Source of the DNA: Ectocarpus siliculosus
Taxonomy: Eukaryota > Sar > Phaeophyceae > Ectocarpales > Ectocarpaceae
NCBI GenBank assembly: GCA_000310025.1
Contig: FN648618.1
Coordinates: forward strand, 40,427-104,426
DNA length: 64,000 nucleotides
Direction: 5' to 3'
The position numbers and the translations under genes are program-made. The notes beneath the pieces were generated by a model that ran no database searches, was not told where the DNA came from, and worked only from the letters and a program-made list of their open reading frames with translations. Positions 29,887-55,275 of the stretch are shown in pieces; the first letter of the stretch is position 1; each line of letters begins with the position of its first letter.

Positions 29887-29907
29887 TTTATGTGTTGTCA
29901 GTTTCAG

Positions 29908-30429: not shown

Positions 30430-31797
30430 ATGCCGACACGGGCCTCCACGCGGAGCGGCAGGGCAGCGGCTGGGCAAGCAGGGCGAGGTCGGGCGGCGAC
30501 ACCTTCGACACCACGCACCGCGCGATCGGTGGCGGGCTCGACGGCTCGCCCCTCGACGCGCAGCGGATCACGTACTCCCGCGAGGCGTCGAGCGGTATCC
30601 TCCTCGCGAGCGCGAGGGACAGGCACCCGCGGCGACCCCCCCGCTGATGAGACTGAGCTCGCTTCTCTCCGCGGGCTGGTGGACGGCCTGAGGGAGGAGC
30701 TGCAGCGGAAGCGCGATGAGGCTGCCGGCGATCGCCAGCAGCTTCAAGCAACGATCGACGACTTGATCGCCACCCAAGCAGCAGGACCTGGCTTTCAGGG
30801 GGAAGTGCAACTGGTGGGCACAACAGCCCCACCATCGGCCTCTCGGGCCCCCGCTACACCCAGCGCCGAGGCGGCTAAGGCTACGGCAAAGGATAGAGCG
30901 CGGATGTGGGGGGACCTCCGCCGGGTAAAAGCGTCGCTCATCCTGGGGCGGCCTCCGGCAGTTTCAAAACTGTCGCAGATGGAGTGGTAATCCTTGCTTC
31001 GCAAAGGCGTCCTGGTGACAGAGAAAGTGGCGGCATCGCTCAACAAGCTCTCAAACTTCCGGGTCGAAGACTACCGTTCGGGATCTGACACGCCTAACGC
31101 CGAGGTTCCGTTGGAAGAGTCGCTCTCGATCCTCATCACGACCATATCGGCGTTGCTCAAAGCAGGCATTACCGATTCTGAGAGTCTCCAGCGCGTGGGC
31201 ATCCTCGAGGAGTCCCTCAACGTCGGCTTGGCGATGGTCACCGAGCACTGTCGTGAAAACCGCGGCGAGATGCGAAATCCCGCGAACAAACTCCGGTTCG
31301 CGGGATTCATGAACGACGATCTAATCCTGTTCGCATCGCGGTGGTTTGACGCCGCCATCAGTTTCAAGACAACGAACTCTGCGCCGCCGACTGTCATCGA
31401 GGATTTTCCGCCCGTGGTAACCATCGAGTGGAAGAGGATTACTGGCTTCATCGCCATGGGCGGGGTCGGCGCGGCCGCCTTCTACCAGCCTCAGATACGG
31501 GCAGGAGAACAGCTCCTATCGCCGTCCAAGCGAGCCCGGGGGACCACTTCCGGAAGATCACGTGGTTACTGCTTCGCCTTCAACTCGTCGTCCGGTTGCC
31601 ATGATCGTAACTGCCCGTACATCCACGCCCAGAACCCTTCCCACGCTAGGCGCGGAGCGTCCGAAACTCCGGCAACCGGCGCGCGCGGCGTTGGCCACGG
31701 CAACGGGGGAGGGCGCGGAGGAGAGGCGCGCGCCGCTGGTGAGGGCGGCGCGAGACCCAAGGCCGCTGACTTCTTCACCCACGGGAAAGACAAATAG
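30430..31797 (+). pseudogene. Gag-like ORF with CCCH zinc finger, one internal stop
   Basis: One frame runs from ATG 30430 to TAG 31797 (456 codons including the final stop), interrupted only by TAA at 30988-30990 (codon 187). The first 70 residues are Arg/Ser/Thr/Ala-rich. A coiled-coil-like stretch follows ('LRGLVDGLREELQRKRDEA'). The middle is a mixed helical region, and residues 378-399 carry C-X8-C-X4-C-X3-H ('CHDRNCPYIH'), a CCCH-like finger suited to RNA binding. The tail is Gly/Ala/Arg-rich. The position before the recombinase and the nucleic-acid finger suggest a Gag-like role. The stop may be an inactivating mutation, as it has no obvious recoding signal; the recombinase ORF downstream is in the same frame. 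Confidence 0.5.
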
Positions 31798-31815
31798 GGG
31801 TGCGGGCTCTCCCGC

Positions 31816-33045
31816 GTGGCGGGGGGGCCTACCTCGGATGGCAGCGCACCTGCGGCTAAATCGAACGGCAGCACGCCGGTCTGCACGAGGTTGGCTCCAG
31901 GGCTATCAGCAGGTTCAGGACCTGGGACAGGCAGGACGGGACTTTGTTACCGACGTCTTGGCATGCAGCTCGTCGAGCACTCAGTTGCGTCTTCGTCTAG
32001 AAGGACTTACACGTCAGGCTTCAACTCTTGGTGCACGTTTCGCAGGCTGACGGAGAAGCCTAAGTTCCTAGGGCAACGTGCCGGGGACCTTCATGTGTGG
32101 GAGTTGATAGACTTCGTAGCCTGGTGTTTCGAGTCTGAGAGTAATCCAGCGAGTACAATATCCGGAAAACTCACGGCTGTACAACATTTTCATAGGCTGG
32201 AAGCTTCTGTCGAGCTAGACTTGTCGTCTCCGATGTTGAAATGTGCGCTAAGGGGGATTGCGAGGAACCACGTGGCTATGGGGACGGTACGCCGTGTGCG
32301 CCTGCCTGTGTCTTGGCGTATGCTGCTGGACGGGGAAAGCGCAAGCCAGAACTGGGGGGAAGGGGGCAGAGTGATGTGGCTGTGTCTGTGCTTGTCCTAT
32401 CTCTTTATCACACGGTCTGATGAGGCGTTCGCGAATGATGCGGGCAGGGTGTATGAGGCACACTGTCTTACGAGGGCGGACGTAGCATTGTTTGCTGGCG
32501 AGACGCAATTAGTCTTTAGTCACTATCGTAGAGCAGACCGTGTCGAAATGAGGTTTAGAGGGCACAAGGCCGATCAAGAGCAGAAAGGAAACATACGGGT
32601 TCGTACACGAGACGAAGTCACCGGACCGCAGTCAGGTGTGAGAGCACGCGGCGGCGCGGTGGCTCTTGTGGTGGAGCTGTTATCGTGTCATGCGACGTTG
32701 CCTGACTCCGCACCGTTGGCTTCGTACCGTAGTGGAAGAGCAGTGAGAGTAGTGAGGTATACTGCTGCCCTCCGTGCAGTCAGAGAAGTGGTAGTGAAGT
32801 CGGGGCGTAACCCCCAGGAGTACGCGTTGCACTCGTTGCGAATTGGAGGCGCGACGGCTCTTGCATCGGGCGGAGACATCGCAGAACGAGTGATTCAGAG
32901 AGAAGGGAAGTGGAGGTCGGATGCATACAAGCCGTACGCGCGAAACAATGTAGAGGATTCGCGGCGAGTGTCACGGAAACTTACAGACGGCAGTAGGATC
33001 GTATCGAGACAGTCGGGGGAGGGGACCGTATGGGGGAACGGATAG
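31816..33045 (+). CDS. tyrosine recombinase (DIRS/Crypton type)
   Basis: An intact 409-codon ORF. Residues 55-150 form an N-terminal helical domain with 'SSSRRTYTSGFNSWCTF', typical of SAM-like core-binding domains. Catalytic residues read as R200 ('ITRSDEAF'), the basic residue in 'FRGHKADQ', H339-x-x-R342 ('HSLRIGGAT'), W366 ('GKWRSDAYKPY') and nucleophile Y374. That is the complete R-K-H-R-H/W-Y set. The enzyme would join element ends to a target through a 3'-phosphotyrosine link. It starts 18 bases after the Gag-like stop, in the same frame, so coupled or readthrough expression is possible. The form 'HSLRIGGATALASGG' fits DIRS-like and Crypton recombinases equally well. Confidence 0.85.
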   Translation: MAGGPTSDGSAPAAKSNGSTPVCTRLAPGLSAGSGPGTGRTGLCYRRLGMQLVEHSVASSSRRTYTSGFNSWCTFRRLTEKPKFLGQRAGDLHVWELIDFVAWCFESESNPASTISGKLTAVQHFHRLEASVELDLSSPMLKCALRGIARNHVAMGTVRRVRLPVSWRMLLDGESASQNWGEGGRVMWLCLCLSYLFITRSDEAFANDAGRVYEAHCLTRADVALFAGETQLVFSHYRRADRVEMRFRGHKADQEQKGNIRVRTRDEVTGPQSGVRARGGAVALVVELLSCHATLPDSAPLASYRSGRAVRVVRYTAALRAVREVVVKSGRNPQEYALHSLRIGGATALASGGDIAERVIQREGKWRSDAYKPYARNNVEDSRRVSRKLTDGSRIVSRQSGEGTVWGNG

Positions 33046-33086
33046 TTGACTTATTCGGTAGTCGTCCAGAAACTGACCTCGATGTG

Positions 33087-33324
33087 GGTGTTGTAGAATG
33101 GTGTGTACCATTTGAGGACTTGGTCAGTTGTGGGACTCCTGCGTTTGCAGTCGTAGTCCCCCGGCTAGTATTTGTGGGGAGAGAGATGGATTTGTAAGAG
33201 TTGACGCCGGCCTTTGCAGCTAACGCGGCCGGAGAGACGATGAGCGTTTCGTGCGTCTCTCCCCCCAACACGTAGCCTAGAAACCGAAGAAACAATGAAG
33301 CAATTCGAAAGAAAACAAAATAAA
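33087..33324 (+). repeat. internal direct repeat B1
   Basis: 238 bp from 'ggtgttgtagaatggtgtg' to 'gaaaacaaaataaa', about 97% identical to B2. It begins 42 bp after the recombinase stop codon. Confidence 0.9.
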
Positions 33325-33645
33325 GGAAGGTTTGTTCGTCGAAGCAGATAGAATAAACTGGTGTTTATTTTGTAACAGTCGAATTTGAATTTGGCTTCAT
33401 TTTCTACCGGAAACCCAGGGTCACGGTGTTTGGAATTATTAGTCTATAGTTGGGGGTGTCATTCCGTGATCGAGTCCACGCAGGGGCTGTAGCAAAGTCG
33501 GGTAACGTGTGACAGCTACAGAGCGCGTGAAGCAACGGAAGGACACTGCTACGCAGTAGCGGCGGCAGTTTAGAAAATCCCGCCCTCCCATCCCTTTTCT
33601 TTCGAAGGTGGCGGCATAAGTTCGGGAATATTCGGTATCTAGTCA

Positions 33646-33883
33646 GGTGTTGTAGAATGGTGTGTGCCATTTGAGGACTTGGTCAGTTGTGGGACTCCTG
33701 CGTTTGCAGTCGTAGTCTCCCGGCTAGTATTTGTGGGGAGAGAGATGGATTTGTAAGAGTTGACGCCGGCCTTTGCAGCTAACGCGGCCGGAGAGACGAT
33801 GAGCGTTTCGTGCGTCTCTCTCCCCAACACGTAGCCTAGAAACCGAAGAAAAAATGAAGCATTTCGAAAGAAAACAAAATAAA
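33646..33883 (+). repeat. internal direct repeat B2
   Basis: Second 238-bp copy, separated from B1 by a 321-bp unique segment and directly joined to A2 at 33884. Confidence 0.9.
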
Positions 33884-34388
33884 CTGCCTCATTCGGGATG
33901 CGTACACCCTAGGAGGGATAGTTGGCTTGTGACCACGACAGGCGTACGAGCCAGACGGATGTAAGCCGCTACTGAGCGGACGCTGCAGCATGTGCTGCAG
34001 GAAGCAAAAGCACGGCAACCACGCGAGCTCTCGCACAAAAATCCGTAGGGTTAAGAGTGTTTGCGCAAACATTGAAGAGACATGAAACATGCATGCACGT
34101 TCAATCTGGCCACATCCATCGCCACCAACGGCACCAGCGCACAGCAAACTTTGGGCGTTCATGCTTTGCACACACATGCAAAACAGAGGGTAGGTACAGA
34201 ACCATGAAAGCATAACATGTGTGTTGTGTGTTGTTACACATGTTTTACATAATATTATAGCTATACTGTTGGCGCTTGACCATTCGCCCCATCGATCTAG
34301 CAGCGGACGATACCTCACCCAATTGACGTTCACTGCGTTCGTCACACTTCGAGCGCCGAAAGGTTGATTATCAATATTGACCTACGAA
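33884..34388 (+). repeat. terminal direct repeat A2
   Basis: 505-bp partner of A1. The right boundary is where similarity stops after 'gacctacgaa'. Confidence 0.9.
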
Positions 34389-37481: not shown

Positions 37482-37779
37482 TGTTAAGGAGTGTGGCTGC
37501 TAGCTTGAATAGGGTACATCTTATTTCTTGATAGGATGTGGGTCGGTCCCAGGAGGTATACCCTTCAGACACCTACCCTCTCAAAGTTTGTCTAGTCTGC
37601 GTACCCCCCTGAGGTGAAGTTGGATCCCCACTTCACCTCAGACCCTTGCTGATCGTCTCTCAGCAATAACGAGCAACTTTCCCATCTCAACATGGTCGTG
37701 GACAAGCGTGTCAACGACAGAACCTACCTTCATCTATCTCTAGGAGCAAGCTACCGCCCACGGCTTCACCTCCTTTAAA
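37482..37779 (+). repeat. 5' LTR
   Basis: 298 bp, starting TGTTAAGGAG and ending CTCCTTTAAA, so its ends are imperfect inverted repeats. It differs from the 3' LTR by about ten substitutions and carries 12 extra bases near 37603-37614. It should contain the promoter; I see no clear TATA box. Confidence 0.9.
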
Positions 37780-37781
37780 CT

Positions 37782-37800
37782 TGGCGTCAGCTGGCATTAC
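37782..37800 (+). promoter_or_regulatory. candidate primer-binding site
   Basis: TGGCGTCAGCTGG starts two bases after the 5' LTR, the position and TGG start expected for a tRNA-primed minus-strand origin. I cannot say which tRNA would match. Confidence 0.45.
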
Positions 37801-37811
37801 ACGGTAAGCGG

Positions 37812-38862
37812 GTGCTGGACGCGGCCTCAACACTGCTGTGTGTTGTTGTCACGCTTTCTTCACAATCACTGGGTTGTCTGTTATTTGGTCTCACCACCCA
37901 CGAGAATCTAGACTTAGCCTCTGCTTCTTCTCCTGTAGAGATGCTGGCTTGCGATGCTTTTGCTACGCGTCCGCGGGACTGGGACCTTGCGAAGGATGCG
38001 CGCCCCGGCGGTCATCGCGATGTTGTGGGTGATCTTTCCTACTTTCGCCGCCCCTCCCAAGCTATTTTGTCTGCATCGTCGGTCCATGAAGTTATTTCGG
38101 TGGCGGATACGCTTTGCATGCAGCAACCGGAGCTGCTGACTTTGTGTAGGGGGACTCGAGATGGCAGCATGCTTCCCACGTCCGCTACCTCCTCTACTGC
38201 ATTCATGCCGGCGTACCGGCCGATGTCCGCGGATTTCCCTGTGGTGCTCTCCGATTTGACTCCGCTTGTTTCGTCGTGGAGAGCGTTGTGCGCACACAAA
38301 TTGGGTGTCAGCCGCCCCACCAGCCTTCCTTCCATTTTTCGCAAACACATGGCAATTGGTTTGGGGAATCGTTCACCGTCAAGGCCTTTGAATTGGAAAC
38401 CTTTCAACAGCACAAACCCACAGCGGTCTTTGGTCGCACTTCGGCTCCAGTTGCAGAGAAACGCCGTGCTGCTCTGCGTGTGTTTTGGTCGGACAATCTC
38501 GTGTCTCCATCTAATACGGGTCCTTTTGTACTAGCTTCCACTGCTGTCTATGCGTGGCATGGTGTGCTTTTGGACGCTTTTTCTGCTTGGTTGGATCCGC
38601 TTCAACCTCATGTGCACCAAGCTTTTATCACCGGGCGTATGCTATCCTGTGGGTATCTCCGTTTTTCGCGTGGACCTCGGTTTACTTCTCCCGCGCTTGC
38701 ACCCACCTTTACTGTTTCTGCTGCAATCGGTTCTGCTGCCGCAACTGCGGTTGGGGGTGACACATCTGCTGTTTCTGGCCGTACTGACCTTTCCGAAATC
38801 GATAGTAGCTACCCTTCTGGCCCTGTCTTTGTCAAAAAAGAGAACAACTGTCGAGCGGCCAT
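37812..38862 (+). CDS. retrotransposon 5' coding region, frameshifted, function unknown
   Basis: Protein-like sequence runs in one frame from about 37940 to 38270 ('SVADTLCMQQPELLTLC', 'YRPMSADFPVVLSDLTP'). It then continues in another frame to about 38860 ('FELETFQQHKPTAVFG', 'LASTAVYAWHGVLLDAF'). A diverged copy of the first part is present at 54590-54915 on the other strand, and both copies keep the same peptide phrases. That supports genuine coding history. I recognise no domain. It precedes the usual Gag and is not normal for gypsy elements. Confidence 0.45.
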
Positions 38863-40694
38863 GTGGAATTGCTGGACGGCAATGAGGAAATCCTGGACTA
38901 CGAAGCCGAGGGCGAGGCTTCCACCGCGGAGCAGTTTCCAGTGGCCGGGAAGAGAGACGAGAGCGGGTTCGCACCCGGCGCGCCCACAGTTGAGGACCTG
39001 CTGGACAACATCGCCACGGCGGATCCGGCGGACCTGGAGCAGGCATACAACGCTGGACGGATCTCTCTGCAGGACGTTGTCGGGGCAGCTCGTTTGTCCT
39101 CCGATTCCCCCATCTACGTTCGTCCTTTCCCGCTCCCTCAGGAAGCCACACTGCTGCACTTGCCGCAAAAGGAGTTCGAGGCTTATCAAGACTTGAACGA
39201 GATGTGGTGCCGAGGTCTGGCCAGCAAGGTAGCGGAGGCGCAAGCGCGGAAGCAGGAGGAGGAGCGTGAGGCTGTCCTGGCTGCTGCTGCGAGGAAGCAG
39301 GAGGAGGAGCGTGAGGCTGCTCTGGCTGCGGCTGCGAGGAAGCAGGAGAGGAGCGTGAGGCAGCTCTGGCTGCTGGTGCGAGGAAACAGGAGGAGGCGGA
39401 AGAGAGGAAGCAGGCGGAGGAGCGTGAGGCTGCTCGGGCTGCTGCGCAGAAGAAGGCGGAACTGGCGGCGCGCGAGAAGTATGTCCAAGCTGTTCGGGCG
39501 AAGCAGGGGGCGCTCCGATCACGGCTGGAGGACCTGGAGCAACGCCCGCAAGCTTCGGCTTTGCCTTCGCCCCCCCCCCATCGTCGTGTCATTCCCCCTC
39601 TCAAATCCCAGGCGACCTCTCGTCTTCGGAGCACAAGTTGGCAAGAGGGGACCGGGCAGGAGGTGGCTGCGGCTCAGAAGTTTTCCGTGACGCTGGATGG
39701 ACCGGCCGGGGATGCCGACGGCGTGTCGGCCGACGCAGCCACAAAGTACAAATTTCGCATGAATGACACGGCGTTCCTGTCCCGCCCCCTAGAGACGCCT
39801 ACAGACGTGGTCACCTTCCATGATGCCGACAGAACTGGCGCCCTTTTCCCGTGGGCCGGCATTCAACAGATCGTGTGTGACCAGTATCCTAATTCCTATG
39901 CTGAAGTTGGCTTTGCGCACATTGTGTCAAGCCCCTTCCTCGACCAGCTTGAGCCTTCCCTGCAACAGGGCGTGTTTCGGCTCGTATCTGCTCTCCGTCG
40001 GGCTTCATTCACCGAAGGTCCTCAGGGAACGTCGGTGGTGGTCCGCAATGGGGGAATCCGGCTGCCTCTGGCTCGTACTGCCACTGCGCACGACTTTCAG
40101 CATGATCTGCAGCTCCCCCAGCAGGATTCTGCACGACATGCCTATGCTTCTGGAGGGAAGAAGGATTACAGTCGGTCGGCGGCTCCTGCATCCACGAACC
40201 GGAGGAACCGTTTGGGTGACCAAGCTCCCACGGCCAAGAGCGGGACGACCGAGCGCCACCGTTTCGACCCATCTTCGCGAGGGCGCGGTGTCGGAGATGG
40301 CGGGCGGGGGCACGCGGGAGCCCAGCTTCCCAGATCTTCGTCGACGCGTCGCCACCGCCGGAGCCGGAGCCGGAGCACAGACCGTCAGCAACGCCACGCG
40401 CCTTCGTCTCGGCGTAACGCAGCCGGAGCGGCGAACACGGCGAGAGCAACACGCCTTCGAGTAGGCGTAGCCGCAGCCGGACCCAGACGAGGAGCGGGGG
40501 CAACAGCAGGGCGACCAGCTCGGACAGCGGTCGAGGTGGCAAAGGGAGAAGGAAATCAGGTCAAGGTAACAGGCAAGTGCAGTATGATCGGCGTCATCTT
40601 CATAGCTCTGGGTTGTTGGGGGAAAACAAGGATGCTTCAGAAGACGGTTCCCTCTGTTCTTCGCCACTTGTTTTGCGCCCCCTCGCTGATGTAG
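38863..40694 (+). pseudogene. retrotransposon ORF with coiled-coil repeats, one 1-nt deletion
   Basis: The frame opens around 38863 with an acidic region ('TVEDLLDNIATADPADLEQA'), then a coiled coil built of 15-residue repeats of the type KQEEEREAALAAAAR. A 1-nt deletion in the third 45-nt unit (about 39349) shifts the frame. The other frame continues the coil ('AEERKQAEEREAARAAAQKK') and then a folded-looking domain with 'YKFRMNDTAFLSRPLETPTD' and 'QIVCDQYPNSYAEVGF'. The tail is rich in Arg, Ser and Gly (RS-like), suited to RNA binding. It ends at 40694, overlapping the next ORF by 118 nt. I do not recognise the domain; a second Gag-like structural protein is possible. Confidence 0.5.
39244..39446 (+). 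repeat. 45-nt coding minisatellite
   Basis: Units begin at 39244, 39289, 39334 and 39378 ('gcgaggaagcaggaggagg' type). The third unit is 44 nt, so a single-base deletion there causes the frameshift in the coiled-coil ORF. Confidence 0.85.
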
Positions 40695-42733
40695 GACAGC
40701 CGCCCGTGTCTACCTTGGCGTTCAAACTTGCCAACATGCAACTTCGTGAACACTCATCCGCGGTGAAAAGCCATGCCCCTACACATACCGTTGTGGATCA
40801 TCCCACATCTTCCTTGCCTTTGGACGAACGTGTTGACTCACCACGCCATGCTGCATCACACACCTCGACTTCGGCTTCCCGTATTGAAATGCTGTTGGAA
40901 CAAGTGCTCACTCTTCTGCGAGCGCAAAAGCCTGGCCAAGTTGTGGATGCTGCTGCCGACCCGAATGTACCACCTCCTGTGCCCTCGAACGCCCCTAGCA
41001 TGCCACTTTCTGCCCCATCTTTTTCGTCACGAACGCATTTGGCACCGCTGCAAGACCACGCTTTGACTTCCTCGGGAGTTCGTCTAGGGTACGAGGTTCG
41101 TGAAGAGACGGCTGCCGGGGCCACGTCAGGGTCATCGTCATCAGCCACGAGGTCGGCGTCCATACCTGTCGGACCTGCGGTGGTGCCATCAGCGTCGACC
41201 GCCCCAGCTCTGTCGCAACAGCCTTTGGTGGTGCCCCCCCCCCTCCAGCATACGTCTATCCTGATCGATCCTGGCTCGGCGACCGGCCAAATCGTCGCGT
41301 CACCGGCCCACGCGACATCGCCGTTGCCTCAGGATGATGCTAGCTTGCCTTTGTCTTCCACGGGAGCGAGAACGAGGCAGGAGGCTCTGGACGCCGCAGA
41401 CGCCGCTGCAGCGGAGGCCGCCACCATCCGCATTCAAGACAAGATGGACAAGCTGAGACCGGAACAACTCGATAGTGTCACACGCTTGCCCCTTGGTCCT
41501 GATCCCGATGAATTTGCTCGTTTCGCGTCTAGCTGCAAGGGCGTGGTCACAAAGATCCTCAACAAAAGCGACGTCAAGCGCAAGCAAACTTTCAATTCCT
41601 CCACCTGGGTCACCGGATGGCTTCCGTTGTTGCGCAAACGTGTTCGTGCTGCTGTCGTTGAAGGCCAAACCACCAACCGTACCACGCTGGAATTTCTTGA
41701 TGCCACTTTCCTCCAGGTAGAAAACCATCTGCGCAAGGAACCGGCCGGGCCCTCGACGTACGCGTTCTTCATCCAGAAATTGGCGGCTGCCTGGGACACT
41801 CAAGCCAATAGCTCGGGGATTGATCGTCTTCGTAGTTTTGGCGTGTCCACCGGCGAGGCTTACGGAGAATACATTCGTCGCTATAAGGCTCTGGCCGTGA
41901 CCGTCATGGTTTCTCACCACGCGTTCAAGCCTTCGGATGCGCAAGTGCAGATAGCTGTTCGAGACTCCATGTTGAAGCAGTTTCCCGTAGTGTCTGGACA
42001 GGTGTACAAGGATGAGCAGCTCTCCATGGAAGCCCCTTTTGGGCGACATGCTTCGTGTTTGGACGATGTGTGGGATGTGTTGGACAAGCGTGCTTTCGCG
42101 CACACGGCGGTGGTGCATGGAGACGATTTCTTTTCGGTATCTTCCACGAATGCTAGGAGTTCGTCTGCTGTTTCGCGTGCTGTAGCTTCTTCGGCGTTGT
42201 GTTCGTCGGTGACCCCTTCGTGGAGCCGAGGTTCTTCGGCTGCTGTGATGAGTGTTGACCCTCTACCTAATGATGATCGGGACCCTTTGCTGTTGCACTA
42301 CAGCGACTGGCCGTTGCAAGGACACTTCCAAGAGGTGTACAATGTCGCTAGTGAGATGGCTCTAACCAAGAATGATCCGCCATTGTTCACCCCCTTGGTC
42401 TCGGCTAAAGACCGCCGCAACGCGCTTCGGCTGTACAAGGGCAAGTGCCTCAACTGCTTAGGAGAAGACCACTCCTTCAAATCCTGTACTCGTGGTTTCA
42501 TTAACGCCACAGGCCTGCTTCACAATGACATCAAGCTCTGCATGGAAAAAGATCCCACACTTTGGAGTCGGTGGAAAAAGCGCATGACCTCGTATAGACG
42601 CCCTGCAGGACGCAACCCACCCCGTAATCACTCCTCGGGACGCGCCCGCCGCTCATCTGACACATCGGAGATGAAACAGTCCTTACACACAGAATCCTCG
42701 TCGGAGACTTCCACTTCGGCTAAATGGGGCTGA
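40577..42733 (+). CDS. gag: Gag polyprotein with CCHC zinc knuckle
   Basis: An open frame of 718 codons. Residues 1-290 are Ser/Pro/Ala-rich and low complexity. Residues about 300-480 form a helical region with 'VVTKILNKSDVKRKQTFNSS' and 'GEAYGEYIRRYKALAVTVMV' that has the look of a retrotransposon capsid. Near residue 623 is C-X2-C-X4-H-X4-C ('CLNCLGEDHSFKSC'), the nucleocapsid zinc knuckle. A Ser/Arg-rich tail follows. The true start is uncertain, because the frame is open before the zinc-knuckle protein needs it and the upstream ORF overlaps. It ends at TGA 42731-42733, followed by a second in-frame TGA five codons later, after which the same frame reopens as the NADAR ORF. Confidence 0.8.
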   Translation: MQYDRRHLHSSGLLGENKDASEDGSLCSSPLVLRPLADVGQPPVSTLAFKLANMQLREHSSAVKSHAPTHTVVDHPTSSLPLDERVDSPRHAASHTSTSASRIEMLLEQVLTLLRAQKPGQVVDAAADPNVPPPVPSNAPSMPLSAPSFSSRTHLAPLQDHALTSSGVRLGYEVREETAAGATSGSSSSATRSASIPVGPAVVPSASTAPALSQQPLVVPPPLQHTSILIDPGSATGQIVASPAHATSPLPQDDASLPLSSTGARTRQEALDAADAAAAEAATIRIQDKMDKLRPEQLDSVTRLPLGPDPDEFARFASSCKGVVTKILNKSDVKRKQTFNSSTWVTGWLPLLRKRVRAAVVEGQTTNRTTLEFLDATFLQVENHLRKEPAGPSTYAFFIQKLAAAWDTQANSSGIDRLRSFGVSTGEAYGEYIRRYKALAVTVMVSHHAFKPSDAQVQIAVRDSMLKQFPVVSGQVYKDEQLSMEAPFGRHASCLDDVWDVLDKRAFAHTAVVHGDDFFSVSSTNARSSSAVSRAVASSALCSSVTPSWSRGSSAAVMSVDPLPNDDRDPLLLHYSDWPLQGHFQEVYNVASEMALTKNDPPLFTPLVSAKDRRNALRLYKGKCLNCLGEDHSFKSCTRGFINATGLLHNDIKLCMEKDPTLWSRWKKRMTSYRRPAGRNPPRNHSSGRARRSSDTSEMKQSLHTESSSETSTSAKWG

Positions 42734-42796
42734 GAGGGTAAGAAATGACATGCCGATGGCGGAGTTCAGCCGGTACTACCGTCAACAGCAACCACC

Positions 42797-44464
42797 GTGC
42801 ACCCTTTTGAAGTCTCCCAAGATGTTCATGTACAGCCTACTTCTTTGGATACTACCCACGTCCCTAAACCACATCTAGTTTCTCGGCCCGCCTCCTCGTC
42901 GCCCGCCTCATCGTCTGCTGGTATTGGACATGACAAACGCACTCCGGCACAACCTTTGTGGTGTGGGCGACAGGGAGGTGAGACGTCGAGCGGTTCACCC
43001 CTGCTCACCTCGTCGTCTCGGGTTACAGAAGGAACAAGAACCTCGTCTACTACTGTTCGTCAAGACTCTCCTGGTGTTGTCAGCCGGGCCTCTTCTCGGA
43101 TCGCACACGAGCCTTCTTCTACACTCGTCGGGGACCCCATCGATTCTCCTTCTCTTTCGCAGCTTTCGTTGTCTTCGACCGTCCGCTGCCCCCGTGTGAC
43201 AGCACCTGATACGAATGCGTCTTCCTCTGCTGCCCACCACGTGCTGGCTGCACCACTGCCATCGGGATCGGATGGTAGTGCCCACCATTCTGTGGAAAGT
43301 TCGGCTCCTTTGTCACGGGGGAGTAGTCCAGAGCGCCCTGCGTCCATTCAAAAACATCCGTCTACCGCAGGAATGACTTCTCCTAACGAACAGGTCTCTA
43401 ATAGCCGAATGGCCTCTGCTAACATTGACCTCGCCAGAGCCGCCGCCCGTAGGCCGCCCTCCGGAACATGGACCGGAGCGACTTCGCCCGCTCCTCCCTC
43501 GCTTTCTGGGTCCTCCCCGTCGGAGATGAAGACCCGTCCGCTTGGCCCACCCCCGCCCTTGCCTGGTGCCCGCTCTTTGCCCCTCCGCCCTGCACCGGCT
43601 CCGCCGTTTGATGACAAATGCGAGTACGCTTCGGATGACGTCCTCCTCTTCTGGAAACCTCCGTCTGTGTTCTCGCAGTGGACTCCCTCGGCTTTTGACG
43701 TATTGGGGGTACGTTATTCATGTGGTGAGCTATTTATGATGTCTGAAAAAGCGAAGTTGTTCGGGGATATGACGTCGTATGACAAAATCATGGCTGCAAC
43801 AGATCCCAAGGCACACAAGTACTTGGGTCGTAACGTACGTCCTTTCGACTATGCTGAAGGGGATCGTCGTCGAGAAGAGATCGTGCTTACGGGGTCGTAT
43901 GCCAAATTTGCTCAAAACCATGACATGAAACAACATTTACTGGAGACGGGTACCCGCCTCTTTGCGGAAGCCAGCCCCTTCGATCGTGTTTGGAGTATCG
44001 GCATGTCTGCATGTTTTCCGAAAGCTAGCATTTCATCCAAGTGGGCGTCTAGCGGTAAAAACTTGTTGGGAAAAGCTTTGATGGAAGTTCGGCGCATATT
44101 GCGTGATCATCCCCTGTCTGGCGAAACTCTCCCTGCCTCCACTTCTCCCACTCCCCCCATTTCGCAGCCTCCTCCCCACGGCCGTAGACGCATCCGCGAG
44201 GTTGCTACCGCGGCCGGTTCGTCGTCACGGGAGGACCGGGGTGAAGACCCAGCTTGTCTCCGTTTGGACGCTCCGGGGGACCGTGCTCCTGGTGTTCATG
44301 TCGTGGCCTCGACCTCCGCTTGTGCAGACCAACCTCCTCTTCTGGAACAAGGGCCCGATCTGGTCGGCGGCACGCTCCTGTTGGACTCGGACTCATACAC
44401 CACCCGGGTTCTGCTGCATGGAGGACCTACAGCCACTTCTCAACTCGCGCGAGTGGCCTGCTAG
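42797..44464 (+). CDS. NADAR (YbiA-like, DUF1768) domain ORF inside the retrotransposon
   Basis: An intact frame of 555 codons in the Gag frame. Residues 1-270 are Ser/Pro-rich linker. Residues about 281-436 match the NADAR fold: 'LLFWKPPSVFSQWTPSAFDV', 'YSCGELFMMSEKAKLFGD', 'AHKYLGRNVRPFDYAEGDRR', 'YAKFAQNHDMKQHLLETG', 'FAEASPFDRVWSIGMS' and 'KNLLGKALMEVRRILR'. These keep the conserved Glu (GEL), KA.LFGD, KF.QN, LL.TG, EASP.D..W and N.LG..LM.VR. NADAR enzymes are glycosidases that remove ADP-ribose-linked bases or adducts. The frame has no early ATG (42797 is a GTG), so it is probably made as a Gag extension. It overlaps the protease frame by about 200 nt at its end. Confidence 0.8.
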   Translation: MHPFEVSQDVHVQPTSLDTTHVPKPHLVSRPASSSPASSSAGIGHDKRTPAQPLWCGRQGGETSSGSPLLTSSSRVTEGTRTSSTTVRQDSPGVVSRASSRIAHEPSSTLVGDPIDSPSLSQLSLSSTVRCPRVTAPDTNASSSAAHHVLAAPLPSGSDGSAHHSVESSAPLSRGSSPERPASIQKHPSTAGMTSPNEQVSNSRMASANIDLARAAARRPPSGTWTGATSPAPPSLSGSSPSEMKTRPLGPPPPLPGARSLPLRPAPAPPFDDKCEYASDDVLLFWKPPSVFSQWTPSAFDVLGVRYSCGELFMMSEKAKLFGDMTSYDKIMAATDPKAHKYLGRNVRPFDYAEGDRRREEIVLTGSYAKFAQNHDMKQHLLETGTRLFAEASPFDRVWSIGMSACFPKASISSKWASSGKNLLGKALMEVRRILRDHPLSGETLPASTSPTPPISQPPPHGRRRIREVATAAGSSSREDRGEDPACLRLDAPGDRAPGVHVVASTSACADQPPLLEQGPDLVGGTLLLDSDSYTTRVLLHGGPTATSQLARVAC

Positions 44465-44770
44465 ACTCTGGGTCTCCTGCGTCTTTCGTGTCCGACTCCG
44501 TGGTCACCGCCATGATAGCTGCTGGAGCCCTGACAGCTGGCAGCGTTCGTGTTTCGCCCTCTCGTCGTTGGGTGGGTTTGGTGATGGACCCGCCCTTGTG
44601 ACCACTCGGTCAGTTCGTCTCACCGTTAATTTTCTTCATGGAGAGCGAGCTACCGCTTCTTTTGGCGGTCTGGGCCTGCGTTGTTCCAGATGCCGCCATG
44701 GGGCACGCCGTGGTTCTGGGTCGTGATAGCTGGATGCGGTTCAACTCTCGAGTGTTCACCACCCTCCCCC
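44440..44770 (+). pseudogene. retropepsin-like aspartic protease, frameshifted
   Basis: 'LLDSGSPASFVSDSVV' at 44458-44505 is a DSG active site in the usual hydrophobic-D-S/T-G-A/S setting. 'VRLTVNFLHGERATASF' near 44610-44660 and 'AVVLGRDSWMRF' near 44704-44745 fit the flap region and the hhLG-D motif. These three pieces lie in frames 1, 0 and 1, with a stop at 44599-44601, so at least two indels have broken the gene. The DSG frame overlaps the NADAR ORF end, so a -1 shift would link them in an intact relative. Confidence 0.6.
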
Positions 44771-45447
44771 ACCCTAGACCGGACGGCCGGGTTATGGGCG
44801 AGCTCACGCTCTCTCCGCGTTTTACCGCTGGCGCTTGTGTTTACGCTACACACGACGACGCTCCTGCCTCCTCGTTCACCTAAAATATGCAGGGAGCTCG
44901 GGCATTTCCTTATGGCCGGAGCCTGCCCTTGTTGAGGTGGACCTCGTCCGTTCTTCTGGCATGCCTGCGTTGATCGGCGAATATCTCGTATCGTTCCGAC
45001 CCAAAGTGGGTGCGCTTTCGTCCCCCGATGCATTTGTTTCCAATGGTCTCCAGCGTATTCCCCTTGCAGGTTGTGCCGAACTGGAGCCGGGCGACGTTCT
45101 TGGAGTGTCTGCTGCACCGCTATTACGAGTACCAGTAGAAACCCTGAAGGCGGCACCATCCTCGATTCCTACCGGTCCTACGACCTCTACATCACCACAT
45201 CGGGTCAACGCCGTTGGCCTCAAGTCCGGGACTCGCCGCTCTCCGGACCCAGTCTCCGCCCCGCCTCCTCCGAAGCCGTCTCCACAAGAACTACTTGACC
45301 GCTTCTCCGAGACACAGCGCTCCAGCTTTCTGCGCTTGTGAGCTAGGCTGCCCGCACATATGCACGACATCGCTTTCGATCACACAACCCGGGGTGGACA
45401 CCGAAGGCTATTGATCGTTTGGCCGACCCTTTGTTGAGTATTCCGAC
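44770..45447 (+). other. protease-RT linker region, frameshifted
   Basis: Coding-like sequence in more than one frame, for example 'EVDLVRSSGMPALIGEYLV' to 'AGCAELEPGDVLGVSAAPLL' (frame of 44835-45341), then a Ser/Pro-rich run. Likely the normal pol linker. Confidence 0.4.
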
Positions 45448-47173
45448 GTGTTCTCTACTTCGAAAACCGATTTTGGTTCCTGCACCGTCATGCCATTCAC
45501 TCTTTCTGTCCCCGCAGGGACAAAGTCCGTCGCATCACGCCCGTATCGTATTAACCCGTTAATGCAGAAGAAAGTGGATGCCGTGTTCGACGATTACATG
45601 GCGGCAGGGCTCATTCAGCATTCCACCTCTCCCTGGGCGTCTCCTCTGGTCGTCATCCCCAAGAAAGAAGAATCGGTTCGCATCACCGTCAACTACAAGC
45701 GTCTCAACGCCCTGGTGGACTTGGATGGACAACCTCTCCCTCGGGTGGACGGTATCTTCGATTCTCTGTACACCGGGAAAGTGTTCTCCATCTTCGACCT
45801 CAACTCGGCCTTCCACCAGATCGTTTGTGACCAAGACACTGTCCCGCTCACCGCCTTTTGTACTCCCACGCAGTTGTTCGAATGGCTTCGGATGCCGCAA
45901 GGAGCCAACGCAAGCCCGTCTTGGTTCGTCCAAGGTCATCAACAGAGTGGTGCACGCTCTGGAGCGTGTGCTTGCGTATCTGGACGATGTTATATATTTT
46001 GATGAGGAACCTTTGGGACACGTGCTCAACATGATAGAGTTTTTCAAACGGCTGCGGCAGTACAACCTCAAGCTGTCTCCGGGGAAGGCTCGTGTCGGCG
46101 CCACCCACGCCAACTTCCTCGGTCACACCATCTTCCCGGCCGGTGTTAGCCCTGATGGCGCCAAGGTTCGGGCGCTCACGCACATGCCGCCGCCGACGAA
46201 TGTTATGCAGCTTAGGAGCCTTCTCGGTGGCCTCAGCTACTACCGGAATTTCCTCCAGAATCTCGCCACCAAGGTGCGGCCTCTCAACTCTCTTCTCAAA
46301 CAAGTCGTCCCCTTCAAGTACACCCCGGGCATGGTCAAGGTTGTCAAAACGTTGTTAAGCGAACTCGCGCGTCCCCCGATTTTAGTCTTCCCGGATTGGG
46401 CTGCGGTCGAGGACAACAGCCTCCCTCTCCATTTGTGTTCAGACGCGTGCATCGACGGCTTTGGAGCCTCCCAGGAACGAGAACAACTCGATGGCTGGGT
46501 GAGACCCATTGTGTACATCAGCCGCGCTACTCTTCCGGCGGAGCGGAACTGGACCGTTCTGGATCTGGAAGCTGGTGGCATTGCTTGGGCCATTAAACGC
46601 CTTCGGGGTTATCTGTGGTCAACCAAGTTCATCATCTATTCAGACCACAAAGCCTTGGAGAGCATTGGCAAGGTTGGGGAACACAACGCCAGGGTGCAAC
46701 GATGGCTCGAATTCCTGTCCAACTTCACCTACACCCTGAAATATCGGAAAGGTTCGGCAAACGGCAACGCGGATTTCCTTTCGCGGCTGCCTTTACCAGC
46801 ACAAGACACGGACACAACCGGCCCCGATTGCATTGATGGTGTTGATCAAGCGGGTGTCTTCCTCATTCGGCCTTGTGGACTCAAGTATCACTCGTCGTCT
46901 ACACCGGAGGTCGGTTTTGGGTGGGCTCCGGCCTCCCTGCTCGGCGGGAGTCTTTTCTCCCCCAGCGCTGCAGCACTCCGTTTTTGGGGATTTTCGACGT
47001 CATCACCCGCGCCGGCTGGATGTTCGAACGGACTCGACGATTGCTTACAAGGATTCTCGGAGGTCTCCGGGGGTCTTCGTGGTCTCGCATGTTCCCGGAT
47101 TTCCAGTGCCTGTTTCCTCTTTGACTCCTGCTACGTCCCGCGGGATGTCTCCTGCCGCTTCTTTGGCGAATAG
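45448..47173 (+). pseudogene. pol: reverse transcriptase and RNase H, one frameshift
   Basis: RT runs in frame 1 from 45490: 'RPYRINPLMQKKVDAVF', 'WASPLVVIPKKEESVRITVN', 'FSIFDLNSAFHQI' (motif A Asp) and 'WLRMPQGANASPSWF'. Between about 45925 and 45940 it shifts to the frame that gives 'KVINRVVHALERVLAYLDD' (YLDD at 45977-45988) and 'LSPGKARVGATHANFLGH'. The same frame continues through the RT connection into RNase H: 'LCSDACIDGFGASQ' (D), 'ERNWTVLDLEAGGIAWAIKR' (E) and 'IIYSDHKALESI' (D). The order and motifs are Ty3/gypsy. Synthesis of element cDNA is lost in this copy unless the shift is a sequencing error. Confidence 0.85.
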
Positions 47174-48361
47174 ATATGTGCACGTCTTGTCTTCGCTTCC
47201 GGAGCGGGGACCGCTCATTTCTTTACGGACTCGGGCCAAGACTACCGCTGCTTCCGGAGGCACCGTCACCGGTCCCACCTATTTCGGACGCCAGGCCGCG
47301 GGCTACCATCGTCCCTCGGACATCGTCGACTGCCAGTCGCCCTAGCAGGTCCCGCTCGACAAACAAGACCACCCGGACCGCCGCGCGTCTACTGCCGCCA
47401 TCCGTCTACTGCCGCCATCCGCGACGGCAGCGTCGGCGTTTTCGTCGACTGCCTCTGCGCCACCGGTGCCTTCGCCGGCATCGGAGCGCCCTGCATCTTC
47501 GGTTTTGCCTTCTATACCGGTTTCGCCTGTGACTTCGCCCCTCCCGATGCCTCCTTTGCGGACAACACCGCGGTCTGCAGCTTCACCGGTCGCTGAGGCT
47601 CCTCGTTCTACAGCCTCTTCCGTGGGATCGCCTGACTTTAGTTTGGAGCCTACTGACTTGGACCCCTCACACTTGCGGGCTTGTGTTCAGAGCTTCAGCA
47701 CTGTGGATTGGGCTAGGGAACAACAGCGGGAGAGCGAATGCGTGGTGGCTATGCGTTTTCTGTCTCGCGGCTCTCCCTCCCCACCCCCTTTTGACTTGCT
47801 CACATTTAGTGCCCCGCTTCGCTCCCCTCGGTCAGACGATGTCCTTGCGTTGGCGGCGAAAACCAGACTGCACACGACCGACGATAACGTCACCCTCCTC
47901 GTACATAAATCGGCGCCATCGCCGATTGGGCGCTCTGGTGGCAGGACCACTCGTCTACCGGATACCGGTGTGCCCCGTGTCGACGTGTCCATGCTGATGC
48001 GTCCGTGGGTCCTTCATGCCTGCCATACCGCCGTGTCCTTCCATCTCGGTGTTCATCGTACACAACGTCTGCTTGAGCGTTTCTAGTGGTGGATTGGTCT
48101 GGATCGTTCCGTGCGCTGGTGGCTTCGAGCGTGTTTGGTGTGTCAAGCTCGCAAGACTTCGCGTCAGACCGCTCGGTGGACCGTCATCGCTATGCCATTG
48201 CCACAGGGGCCTGGTACGGTCGTCGCGTCGACTTCTTCGGACCTCTGCCCGTGACTGCCAAGGGCAGTTCCTACATTCTGTTGTTCACAGACCGTTTCAG
48301 CCGGAGAGCCGACATGTTCGCGGTTACAGAGGCGGAATTTACGGCGAAAGGGACGACATGA
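47174..48361 (+). pseudogene. pol: integrase N-terminal zinc domain and start of catalytic core, broken
   Basis: From 47466 a frame encodes a Ser/Pro-rich linker, then 'LHACHTAVSFHLGVHRTQRL' (the HH half of the HHCC zinc finger). A TAG follows at 48084-48086, then 'RWWLRACLVCQARK' (the CC half) in the same frame. Around 48205 the frame shifts and 'VDFFGPLPVTAKGSSYILLF' gives the first catalytic Asp of the integrase core. A further shift lies near 48355. So this part has one stop and two shifts. Confidence 0.7.
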
Positions 48362-48365
48362 CCAA

Positions 48366-49778
48366 GTGGGGATGTCGACTACGTTATTGTCGGACAACGG
48401 ACTGCATTTCTGCTCGAAGCTCTCCATGGCGATCTACGAGGTGATAAAAATCAAGAAGGTCACCACCAGCTCCTACCACCCGCAAACCAATGGCGGCACG
48501 GAACGCGTCAATCACACGATGGCTCAGATGCTTGCGGTGGTCGTCAACGAACAGCAAAACGATTGGGACGTACATCTGCCGCACGTTGAGTTTGCCTACA
48601 ACAATTCCGTGAACCAGTCGACTGGATTGGCGCCGAACGAGATCCACATCGGACGCATTCCGCGGCTTTCGCTTTCGGTCTTCGATCATCCCACGGTAGG
48701 TGGTCATCAAAGCTTGGCCCGCGACCAACTCGAGTATTGCAACTTGGCTGTCGATCGCCAGCGCCGGGCCTACGAACTGGTCCGTGAGTACAACGCCCTG
48801 AAGATTTTGCGACTCGAACGCCGTAACTCATCCCTGCTGGATGCCATCCACAAGCTCCCTCAATTTACTGTTGGCGTGTGGGCTTGGGTGTACAACACGG
48901 CTGCTACAATTCGAAAGGGTGTGCGGAAGGACACGGATCAACAGGTGCTCAAGGCCAAACTCGCGCTTTCCTGGACGGGGCCTTACAAAGTTCTTGCGGT
49001 GGGTCCCGCTTCGGCCGACGCCATCCCAGAAGGAAGCCCGTTGGCGCGTAAACTCCTCTACCTGGACCTGCCTTCCGATCTTTCCAGCCCAGCAGCTCGA
49101 TGTCGCGTGTCTGTCCTTCGTTGGAAGCCCTGTCGCAATCCATACGAGACGGACGACCTGCCACAATCTCTGCCCGCTGAGCTTTCGCGTTATGTCCTGC
49201 ACTCTTTCGGCGATAAATGTCCACCGTTTCACGTCACCGCAGATGATGTGTCGGTGCCTGTCGGGCGCCTCGAGGTCGACTACATTTCGGGACATCAACT
49301 GGTGCGGGGCCGTAGCGGCGTTCTCGCTGTCTTGTACCAGACGCATTGGCTAGGCCTGACAACTCCTTCCTGGGAACGGGAGTCCGACCTCGATCAATTC
49401 CGTCGATACATCCTCTTGTACTGGTCTCGAGAGGTCTGCCAAAGCAAGCAGGGTAACCGTACGTATCGAGTGGCTCGGACACGCGCGGCACAACGGGAGC
49501 TAGCCCGGAATCGTGGAGAATTCTATTTGCCTCCTGGGGCTGATCTTGTGCTTCACGCGACTTGGCTCCGTCGCTTCAGCATTTCGACCCTTCCGGTGGG
49601 AGCGCGGCTGTGGTACAAGGCCCGCGATGGATTGTGGTGGACCGGACGTATTGGTGCGCTCATCAGGACGGCTCGTACATCGTTCGATTTCTGGATGACC
49701 CGGGCCCCAGCGTTCTCCCTCTGCCTGCGCACCTCTACTCCACCGCCGTGGACGCCGTCTGTGGATCATGGTGTTTAG
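48366..49778 (+). CDS. pol: integrase core end, chromodomain and C-terminal tail
   Basis: An open 470-codon frame. 'LLSDNGLHFCSKL' holds the second catalytic Asp and 'SSYHPQTNGGTERVNH' the Glu of the D-D-35-E triad. Residues about 300-355 ('LEVDYISGHQLV', then 'HWLGLTTPSWERESDLDQF') match a chromodomain: strand, W.G..., and the TWE/SWE..L helix. Chromodomains steer integration to marked chromatin in chromoviruses. Near residue 410 'VGARLWYKARDGLWWTGRI' resembles a Tudor/agenet barrel strand pair; this is a weaker call. Ends at TAG 49776-49778. Confidence 0.8.
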   Translation: MGMSTTLLSDNGLHFCSKLSMAIYEVIKIKKVTTSSYHPQTNGGTERVNHTMAQMLAVVVNEQQNDWDVHLPHVEFAYNNSVNQSTGLAPNEIHIGRIPRLSLSVFDHPTVGGHQSLARDQLEYCNLAVDRQRRAYELVREYNALKILRLERRNSSLLDAIHKLPQFTVGVWAWVYNTAATIRKGVRKDTDQQVLKAKLALSWTGPYKVLAVGPASADAIPEGSPLARKLLYLDLPSDLSSPAARCRVSVLRWKPCRNPYETDDLPQSLPAELSRYVLHSFGDKCPPFHVTADDVSVPVGRLEVDYISGHQLVRGRSGVLAVLYQTHWLGLTTPSWERESDLDQFRRYILLYWSREVCQSKQGNRTYRVARTRAAQRELARNRGEFYLPPGADLVLHATWLRRFSISTLPVGARLWYKARDGLWWTGRIGALIRTARTSFDFWMTRAPAFSLCLRTSTPPPWTPSVDHGV

Positions 49779-51288
49779 AAAAACATCGCTCGCGCCCTTT
49801 GGGCGACGCCCGTGGTCGCACTCCTCTAATTACTGACTCCTTACCGTCGGCTGTTCCCAATATTTCTTCTTAGCGTCGTCGTTTTCATGTACGAGTTGGT
49901 CTATGTTGGCTTTTGTTTTGTTTGTTTGTTTGTTTGTTTGTTTGTTTGTTATTTTCTTGTCGATTTTCTTTGTTGGCTTATTTCGTGTTTGGATGCAGGG
50001 CCGACACCGCCTCAAGACACGCGGTGTCGAATGATCCTTCTTTCATGTTGCATGTATTCGTCTGAATCAGTGAACTGCCGCGACCTGGATGCACGTTCTC
50101 TCTCGTCTTTTCCTTGCTTTTATTTTTTTTTCTTGTTCGTATTTGGTTCTCCTGACGGGCTTCTTCCGAAGTTTCCTCCGTGTGGTTTGCCTCTGAACAC
50201 TTGGAAAAAAGTTCCCCAAGTTTCGTCCGTGTTGTTTGCTCTGAATACTTGGAACAAGAGTTCCCCAAGTTTCGTCGGTGTAGTTTGCCTCTGACCATGT
50301 GGACACCGAGTTCCCCGTGTTTCCCTTGGTTCGCCTTTTGCCAACTATTTTGTTTTTTTCGTTTAGCTCCATCGTGCCGCAGAAGTGTCGCCCATGCCTA
50401 TTACTTCGGGATTCCATCCCGTTGCGTCGTCTTCTCCCGTGGACTTTCGTCGTCATCCACACTTCGTTCTACTTCGTCTCCGTGATCGCTACATGCAGGC
50501 GACGCCTTCATCGTCGTCGAGCCCTTGAGTCGTTGTGTTGTTGTGTTTATCTCTGCGACCTTTCTGTGTTTATGTCTTTGTGTGTTATGTATCGCCAGCG
50601 AGACAGGGCGCGGTTCGTCAGATCGCTTCTCAGACGTTGGTCATTCATGCTTTGCATCCTTGGTTTTCTTTAGGTCTTGCCGCGGCCGCCTCGCTATACG
50701 GTTTAGGTTCCTTGACACGCTGGAAATCGGTCTCGGCGCGTTTGCCTGTCGTTCATTTCTCCTGCCCTTCCTTGACGCTTTCCTACATTGCGTTGATTTT
50801 TTCCCCTTTACGTCGCGTCCAGTATCAACGGCCGTATTCGTTCGGAAGTTTGCTCGGGTTTTGAGTTTTGTTGCCGTATTTTGGACTCTCTCGTGTAGTC
50901 ACCTTCATTCCTCCCGTTGTCATACGCGCGGGTGCGAATAAAAGAGTGGTGTGTGGCGTTTAAGCTTTGATTGTATTTCCCTTGTCGTCGTCTGTTCGGG
51001 ATAGCGTGCTCTGCAGCACTACATAAATCCCTTCATTGGCATGAGCGTTGTCATTGAGATGTCGATGTGTCGTCTCGTTACCGTTCGCATCCATCGTTCG
51101 TCTCAATGATGGTGTGGGGGTTGATTCGGGATACTTCTACAACTCACCCTCCTTTTGGATGTTTTGTGAAGAGTCATATCTTAGATTCATGAGCATCAAT
51201 CGTCAGCTATTATCTTTATTGTAGCTTTTAGGATTTAAGCATTGATTGGAGTATATAATCTGTATATATGATATTCAGGGTGGGCTAG
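49779..51288 (+). other. retrotransposon 3' untranslated region
   Basis: Holds a TTTG microsatellite (about 49919-49950) and about three imperfect 50-bp repeats at 50190-50320 containing 'agttccccaagtttcgtc'. Otherwise T-rich with no credible ORF. Just before the 3' LTR, 'cagggtggg' may be a degenerate polypurine tract. Confidence 0.5.
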
Positions 51289-51574
51289 TGTTGAGGAGTG
51301 TGGCTGCTAGCTTGAATAGGGTACATCTTATTTCTTGATAGGATGTGGGTCGGTCCCAGGAGGTACACCCTTCATACACCTACCCTCTTAGAGTTTGTCT
51401 AGCCTGAGGTGAAGTTGGATCCCCACTTCACCTCAGACCCTTGCTGATTGTCTCTCAGCAATAACAAGCAACTTTCCCATCTCGTCGTGGTCGTGGACAA
51501 GCGTGTCAACGACAGAACCTACCTTCATCTATCTCTAGGAGCAAGCTACCGCCCACGGCTTCACCTCCTTTAAA
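51289..51574 (+). repeat. 3' LTR
   Basis: 286 bp, starting TGTTGAGGAG, matching the 5' LTR except for about ten substitutions and a 12-bp gap. Followed by AATA, matching the 4 bp before the 5' LTR. Confidence 0.9.
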
Positions 51575-54589: not shown

Positions 54590-54915
54590 GAAGGAGGTGT
54601 AGGCGGAGTCAAATCAGAGAGCACAACAGGAAAATTCGCGGACATCGGGCGGTATGCTGGCATGAATGCAGGAGGTGGTAGCAGATGTGGGAAGTATGCT
54701 GTCATCTCGAGCCCCACTACACAAGGCCAGCAACTCAGGCCGCTGCATGCAGAGCGTATCCGCCACAGAAATACCTTCATAGACCGCCGAAGCAGACAAA
54801 AATAGCTTGGGAGGGACGGCGAACGTAGGAAAAATCACCCAATACATCGCGACGACCACCGAGGCGCGTATCCTTCGCAAGATCTCAGTCCCGCGGGCGC
54901 TCAGCAAAAGCATCA
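54590..54915 (-). mobile_element. fragment of a related retrotransposon 5' region
   Basis: The minus strand aligns by eye, at roughly 80-85%, with 37950-38265 of the LTR retrotransposon. Shared phrases include 'gtggcggatacgct', 'tgcatgcag' and 'ccgatgtccgcg'; shared peptides include 'SVADTLCMQ' and 'FPVVLSDLTP'. Small indels break the frame. Only this piece is present; no LTR is adjacent. Confidence 0.75.
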
Positions 54916-54959
54916 CAGGTGGCCAGAGGGCAGGTTGTGGGTGGGTTGTGGGCATCCAC

Positions 54960-55275
54960 AAGGTAGGGGCAGGTTGTAGAGGGGGGTTGGGAGGAGGCCT
55001 CAACCTTGGCCACACGGCTTGGTTGTACAAGGACGAATGCGGAAGGTTGGGAAGCAGCCACAACATTAGGCCACACCTCTTGGTTGTGCAAGCACCAGTC
55101 ACACAGGTTGGGAGGCAGCCACAACGTTAGGCGATTCCACCTAGTTGTGCAAGCACTGATCACACAGGTTGGGGGGCAGCCACAACCTTAGGCCAGACCT
55201 CCTGGTTGTGAAAGCACCGATGATACAGGTTTGGAGGCAGTCACAACCGAAGGCGAGATCTCCTGGCTGTAGATT
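54960..55275 (-). repeat. 61-bp minisatellite array, copy A
   Basis: About five units with period 61, each with 'ggttgggaggcagccacaac' or a variant and 'tggttgt(g/a)caa'. It is the reverse complement of the unit at 62800-63085. The array directly borders the retrotransposon fragment at 54915. Confidence 0.85.

Follow-up and report, generated by a model that had tools for sequence, protein, structure and literature searches.

Why does a retrotransposon of a brown alga carry, inside its own polyprotein, a domain of the NADAR superfamily, and is that domain maintained by selection? The question arises from a stretch of 64,000 nucleotides of Ectocarpus siliculosus (GCA_000310025.1, contig FN648618.1, positions 40,427 to 104,426, forward strand), here called the window. 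In it, a Ty3/Gypsy element of 14.1 kb contains an open reading frame (ORF) of 555 amino acids (42797–44464, plus strand), in which an earlier note, made from the letters alone, had read a NADAR domain. We find that the domain is a NADAR and that it is under purifying selection across the copies of its lineage, and we regard both points as practically certain.

A search of the ORF against the Pfam profile PF08719 bore out the identity of the domain, with E 4.4e-40 and 138 bits (cut-off 35.1) over profile positions 2–163 of 163; ORF residues 285–436 make up the domain. Sequence comparison with the Protein Data Bank (PDB) entry 8bau gave E 2.7e-11. An AlphaFold2 model of 43610–44116, built on a 51-row alignment, had a mean pLDDT of 96.8. 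Among solved structures, Foldseek matched it under E 0.001 to only two: the Phytophthora nicotianae NADAR with ADP-ribose (8bau; E 1.4e-11, TM 0.84 by query, 28% identity) and Escherichia coli YbiA (2b3w; E 5.7e-7, 22% identity), the latter being the comparison that the earlier note had proposed. The catalytic position on the last strand is a Glu (E120, the equivalent of Phytophthora E125), not an Asp or His. These matches place the domain in the NADAR superfamily and the YbiA family, with a fold that is predicted rather than solved. The interval first given for it, 43638–44105, lies one base out of frame and holds four stops as written. The "GEL" block once listed among the conserved motifs did not hold up as one, since it is a variant of the window alone: the other 34 of 35 copies have Q in place of L.

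The domain recurs throughout the genome (G000; 189 Mb, 492 contigs). At least 150 NADAR matches were found (150 scored of 230 candidates), and all 150 exceed the Pfam cut-off. Among these best 150 of 230, 53 lie within open frames of at least 1000 amino acids and 26 within frames of at least 2000, some few of the very long frames possibly crossing masked letters. Reverse transcriptases (RTs) of the lineage were sought with copy L027 as query, and 150 of 422 candidates were scored, the RT of the window's family standing outside this count; pairing used the 150 scored NADAR matches and eight further places. A NADAR lies 0.46–4.5 kb upstream on the same strand for 131 of the 150 scored RTs, and for 70 of the 75 among them that sit in frames of at least 1000 amino acids. 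Conversely, 125 of the 150 scored NADARs have a lineage RT downstream. In L020, L021, and L027, Pfam identified NADAR, RT, RNase H, integrase zinc finger, and integrase core in one Pol protein, with a protease motif between NADAR and RT. The Gag-NADAR-protease order reported earlier is seen in the window and in other copies alike. A one-off capture is ruled out by the at least 150 matches and the pairing with lineage RTs; neither it nor a missing profile or structure match, the two outcomes that the earlier note had named as contrary to its claim, turned up.

Nineteen of the 150 scored RTs lack an upstream NADAR, one of them at a contig start. Four such copies have none within the 2.8–2.9 kb examined upstream, a stretch in which L062 retains the protease, L063 part of one, and L064 and L065 none. 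Among the 20 database proteins nearest by RT (P0122–P0141), 12 contain an entire NADAR, seven lack it, and P0141 has a fragment; six of these seven start too close to the RT, and P0134 has other sequence upstream. P0132, in which Copia-type domains precede the NADAR, is probably a mixed gene model. The architecture of the window lineage also occurs in P0122–P0131 and P0136, and the RTs of our copies cluster with those of P0124 and P0136, two proteins from Ectocarpus sp. CCAP 1310/34. The same alga provides the closest named proteins among the matches listed (89% over 61% of the query), followed by other Ectocarpus, Pylaiella, and Scytosiphon. Judged by these proteins and by the host gene described below, the genome most likely belongs to an Ectocarpus or a close relation.

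Codon models demonstrated purifying selection on the NADAR across copies, as the earlier note had supposed. Over 20 hand-picked copies of the 35, the ratio of nonsynonymous to synonymous rates (omega) was 0.115 for the NADAR (164 codons; log-likelihood, lnL, −3818.7 vs −4109.8 at omega 1) and about 0.045–0.05 for the RT (160 codons; lnL −3275.5 vs −3718.3 at omega 1). In pairwise comparison, synonymous change was saturated in 10 of 11 between-family pairs, with nonsynonymous divergence (dN) of 0.16–0.45. A few close pairs had a high dN/dS on small numbers of differences: L009–L016 (0.56, nine differences) and L011–L013 (0.41, six) for the NADAR, and L010–L024 (0.90, 16) for the RT. Across four families the NADAR is 56–68% identical, better conserved than the linker before it (26–34%) and the stretch after it (18–43%); the corresponding values are 48–63% for the protease (PR) and 59–80% for the RT. 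The ligand and active-site residues of the Phytophthora enzyme are E43, K50, R93, E125, D130, and W133 (PMC11543638). Of the 35 copies, 30 retain all six, as do nine of 12 elements from other sources; the remaining three of these 12 differ at R93 alone. Taken together, the Pfam score, the genomic matches, Foldseek, and selection across copies rule out a chance motif match.

The host element in the window (37482–51574) is a Ty3/Gypsy long terminal repeat (LTR) retrotransposon, as demonstrated by its LTRs, a short target duplication (AATA on both outer flanks), a probable primer binding site (PBS), and the order PR-RT-RNase H-integrase (Table 1). The LTR pair differs at 10 of 286 aligned sites (K80 0.036). 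LTRs usually end in CA; that of the window ends in AAA. By eye, at least seven of the genomic sites of the PBS 13-mer lie 5.8–5.9 kb upstream of NADARs among the matches listed. A chromodomain at the Pol C-terminus matched below the cut-off, with Chromo E 0.19 in the window and 0.089 in L027.

The window copy is decaying. Its gag loses its frame close to the start and is interrupted by an additional in-frame stop towards the end. Pol begins in the gag frame, which carries the linker and NADAR to 44458, and is broken afterwards: the downstream parts are spread over frames 1, 3, 1, 2, and 3 by tblastn, which agrees with the broken protease, RT, and integrase frames reported earlier. The window NADAR retains the six active-site residues and has lost W84 (to G) and G129 (to S). 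All 58 other NADARs compared have W84, and all 57 with a residue at the second position have G129; among the copies, W84 is present in 32 of 35 and G129 in 34 of 35. The open frame of the window NADAR, to which the earlier note had attached meaning, therefore proves nothing alone.

Table 1. Features of the retrotransposon in the window (positions in the window).
Feature	Position	Strand	Evidence and remarks
5' LTR (TGTT...TTTAAA)	37482–37779	+	AATA before; blastn vs 3' LTR 276/298 identities, 12 gap positions
Probable primer binding site	37782–37794	+	2 bases past LTR; 13-mer has 61 exact genome matches vs 2 for reversed control
gag	40155–42745	+	tblastn of L021 gag; main stretch 40418–42745, 87.5% amino acid identity to L021
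TGA then C at gag/pol boundary	42746–42748	+	gag and pol in one frame
Ser/Pro-rich, poorly conserved linker, N-terminus of Pol	42749–43648	+	26–34% identity across four families
NADAR domain	43649–44104	+	PF08719, model, Foldseek, residue tables
Aspartic protease (DSGS motif) and next region	44455–45380	+	Split over frames 1 and 3; tblastn of L021 pol
Reverse transcriptase and RNase H	45355–46969	+	Split over frames 1 and 2; RVT_1 E 2e-12, RT_RNaseH E 6e-25
Integrase and C-terminal Pol	46917–49427	+	Frame 3; tblastn of L021 and L027 pol
3' LTR	51289–51574	+	AATA after

The window holds other repeats. A stretch of about 316 bp between the 5' LTR and gag (37950–38265) recurs beyond the element in inverted orientation at 86% (54603–54917). 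At 29377–34388, direct repeats of 510 bp (98.8% identical) and 238 bp (97.9%) flank or lie beside an ORF (31816–33045) that by eye resembles a tyrosine recombinase and has no Pfam match, possibly an Ngaro/DIRS-type element. A 61-bp tandem repeat array occupies 55008–55251, with a related inverted copy about 8 kb off (62793–63134), and a direct-repeat cluster (up to 385 bp, 85–98.5% identical) occupies 15498–17242. A run of 100 N at 60117–60216 is an assembly gap or masked stretch.

The way in which the domain would be expressed is suggested by the gag/pol boundary. Among 21 copies examined, 12, from four families, have TGA followed by C at this boundary. In five of them (L015, L020, L021, L025, L027) it is the sole in-frame stop upstream of the NADAR in the stretch examined; in the other seven (L011, L012, L017, L023, L026, L028, and the window) it is accompanied by further breaks. 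UGA-C is a leaky stop. We infer that ribosomes reading through the TGA-C that closes gag produce Pol. Some observations count against this: in the remaining nine copies (L009, L010, L013, L014, L016, L018, L019, L022, L024), which include both copies of the L009/L016 type, the nearest in-frame stops differ and the boundary is unreadable. RNA folds beside the window gag stop, evaluated in the window copy only, also did not surpass those of shuffled sequences (z 0.48 and −0.24), leaving a structured readthrough signal unsupported there.

The origin of the domain is best approached through the alga's own NADAR gene. Five free-standing NADAR proteins of Ectocarpales (P0004–P0008, P0006 being from EukProt) were found, four of which share a similar Cys-rich N-terminus; Pfam found no domain in that of P0004. 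In G000, the host gene occupies one place among the 150 scored matches (L061, G000:C24:2124900-2127700). It is in four pieces, with gaps of about 0.3–0.46 kb that we read as introns, and no match to element gag, PR, RT, or RNase H occurs in the 2.8 kb examined around it. Against Ectocarpus sp. 13, three pieces are 83, 90, and 95% identical and the fourth 62%, where the alignment overruns the exon edge.

For phylogenetic analysis, NADARs sharing 5-residue words with the query were sampled (best 120 of 152 matches, from 173 candidates). A tree of 107 rows comprised P0002, P0004–P0009, those of P0010–P0086 with at least 140 amino acids, 16 of the 35 copies, and eight of the 14 viral loci, while the partial P0003 and P0087–P0121 did not enter it; a second tree held 78 hand-chosen rows, 24 of them elements. 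The 107-row tree unites element and host NADARs in a single clade (99/95) that excludes the NADARs of bacteria, fungi, viral contigs, and unnamed metagenomic sources. A single capture of a spliced message is the simplest reading: the element NADAR was most likely taken once, as spliced mRNA, from the alga's own gene, a conclusion with moderate support. The branching order within the clade is only moderately supported. The 107-row tree places the host inside the elements at 84/80, with element monophyly unrejected (p 0.287), and in the 78-row tree, where the element clade has 97/75, the host is its sister at 93/89, a moderate support for sisterhood. Transfer in the reverse direction, from element to host, is a less likely alternative.

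Two other sources were considered. Within the NADARs sampled, neither tree supports the view that the element domain came directly from bacteria; an older bacterial source, for element and host NADAR together, is possible. Viral contigs do carry NADARs (14 loci matched by P0010), and the eight viral loci used in the trees fall outside the element-host clade, which argues against a giant-virus or phage origin. A pattern search of viral contigs for element polyproteins gave no match.

A NADAR also occurs in a second Gypsy lineage. P0173 (JGI, 1931 amino acids) and P0206 (NCBI contig, 2102 amino acids) are Gypsy-type proteins with the order protease-NADAR-RT-RNase H-integrase, their protease matching Pfam below the cut-off and showing an LIDTGS motif in both. 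Their RTs pair apart from the algal lineage (100 for each group, in a quick tree without bootstrap), and their NADARs likewise pair (100/100) apart from those of the algal lineage. With the NADAR after the protease and both domains grouping apart, the two proteins cannot be assigned to the brown-algal lineage. They are best read as a second lineage that captured a NADAR independently, at another position in Pol, although long branches are involved in this placement.

What might the domain do? Pol produced by TGA-C readthrough would bring the NADAR into the virus-like particle together with RT. There it could strip ADP-ribose by hydrolysis from guanines in both the genomic RNA and the cDNA of the element, reversing a host ADP-ribosylation that would otherwise block reverse transcription or integration. 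We favour this protection of RNA and cDNA because NADARs act on guanine-ADP-ribose and a readthrough Pol would be packaged with RT; for the chain as a whole, our confidence stays a little short of even. The published substrates of NADARs are guanine-linked ADP-ribose adducts of DNA and RNA, whereas adducts on phosphate ends or uracil are not cleaved (papers including PMC11543638 and PMC11125620), and among the hydrolase families tested they alone reverse guanosine ADP-ribosylation in RNA. Several results pull the other way. The window copy is itself degraded, with its Pol frame breaks and the loss of W84 and G129, and the equivalent of R93 is K in five host proteins and S in the second lineage (P0173, P0206). 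A host writer of the mark was not found in searches that read no introns: there were no genomic matches to DarT or to KptA/Tpt1, which are accordingly set aside as candidates, and four weak exon-sized matches to PARP, for which the same search was positive in none of 14 control genomes; guanine-specific transferases of other families lay outside the search. Because introns were not read, the absence of a writer is weak evidence. The literature searched holds no activity data for an element NADAR.

The retained catalytic residues and the selection on them would suit any substrate, and the domain may instead act, as counter-defence, on soluble ADP-ribose or NAD-derived signals or on ADP-ribosylated host proteins. 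Phage NADARs are said mostly to target soluble derivatives, those in RNA-virus polyproteins macromolecules (PMC9503650). Lying within Pol, the element domain would more readily serve in the particle than as a free enzyme, and NADARs tested so far act on guanine adducts; we consider such other targets unlikely. A non-catalytic use, in which the NADAR fold would let Pol bind nucleic acid or protein, would accommodate the change at the R93 equivalent that three of 12 outside elements and both members of the second lineage show. The equivalents of E43, K50, E125, D130, and W133 are nonetheless retained in all 12 outside elements and in both of those members, which is more than a mere binding role would require and makes this use distinctly unlikely. 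Processing of the ends or intermediates of element RNA, proposed in PMC12477816, appears more improbable still, given that the intron-blind search found no KptA match in the genome. A functionless passenger, acquired by chance or created by misassembly, could be argued from the degraded window copy and from close pairs with high dN/dS such as L009–L016 (0.56). It is scarcely credible beside an omega of 0.115 over 20 copies, 150 scored matches, the same architecture elsewhere, and a published report in Ectocarpus; the selection test and copy number rule it out.

Protection of element RNA and cDNA would have a wider meaning. Strong selection in one lineage and a separate gain in a second suggest that the host makes a modification which retroelements have to reverse. 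Erasers of nucleic-acid ADP-ribose are known as bacterial antitoxins, and their job in eukaryotes is described as unclear (PMC11125620). It is conceivable, though we think it rather doubtful, that at least two unrelated Ty3/Gypsy lineages took a NADAR independently at different Pol sites and kept its catalytic core, much as RNA viruses acquired NADAR and Macro domains, in response to guanine ADP-ribosylation of retroelement RNA and cDNA as a real, undiscovered eukaryotic defence, the brown-algal eraser having been stolen from a host gene. The alga's own NADAR gene is the direct testable counterpart of the element domain.

The presence of a NADAR in Pol of Ectocarpus Gypsy elements is already known in kind: PMC12477816 (Genome Biol 2025), the one report of a retroelement NADAR in the literature searched (subscription papers and preprints excluded), describes it in one lineage (e.g. 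Gypsy-12_Ec32), and also describes a NADAR in ORF1 of oyster Tx1 LINEs. The shared gag-pol frame across TGA-C, the kinship with the host gene, and the second Gypsy capture were not found reported in that literature, and the terms readthrough, read-through, and stop codon are absent from the main text of PMC12477816. The Gypsy-12_Ec32 lineage is probably that of the window element; a putative C-terminal chromodomain is published for it, and the Chromo matches in the window and L027 fall below the cut-off. The same paper proposes horizontal transfer, on blastp hits almost exclusively bacterial, whereas our trees place the algal gene beside the element domain.

Beyond retroelements, the DarT1-NADAR toxin-antitoxin systems (PMC11543638, PMC11125620) use the same superfamily on the eraser side of guanine ADP-ribosylation. 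Their NADAR, of the BC4488 type, carries Asp on the last strand where the element NADAR, like the YbiA type, has Glu, and the intron-blind search found no DarT match in the genome of the element. The Phytophthora enzyme (8bau) and YbiA (2b3w) share the fold, and the active-site residues of 8bau are kept in the element domain; both are free-standing enzymes, whereas the element NADAR is a domain of a retrotransposon polyprotein. In that arrangement it resembles the RNA-virus polyproteins with NADAR or Macro domains (PMC9503650), which likewise set an ADP-ribose-processing domain beside a polymerase, there an RNA-dependent RNA polymerase and here the reverse transcriptase of a retrotransposon.
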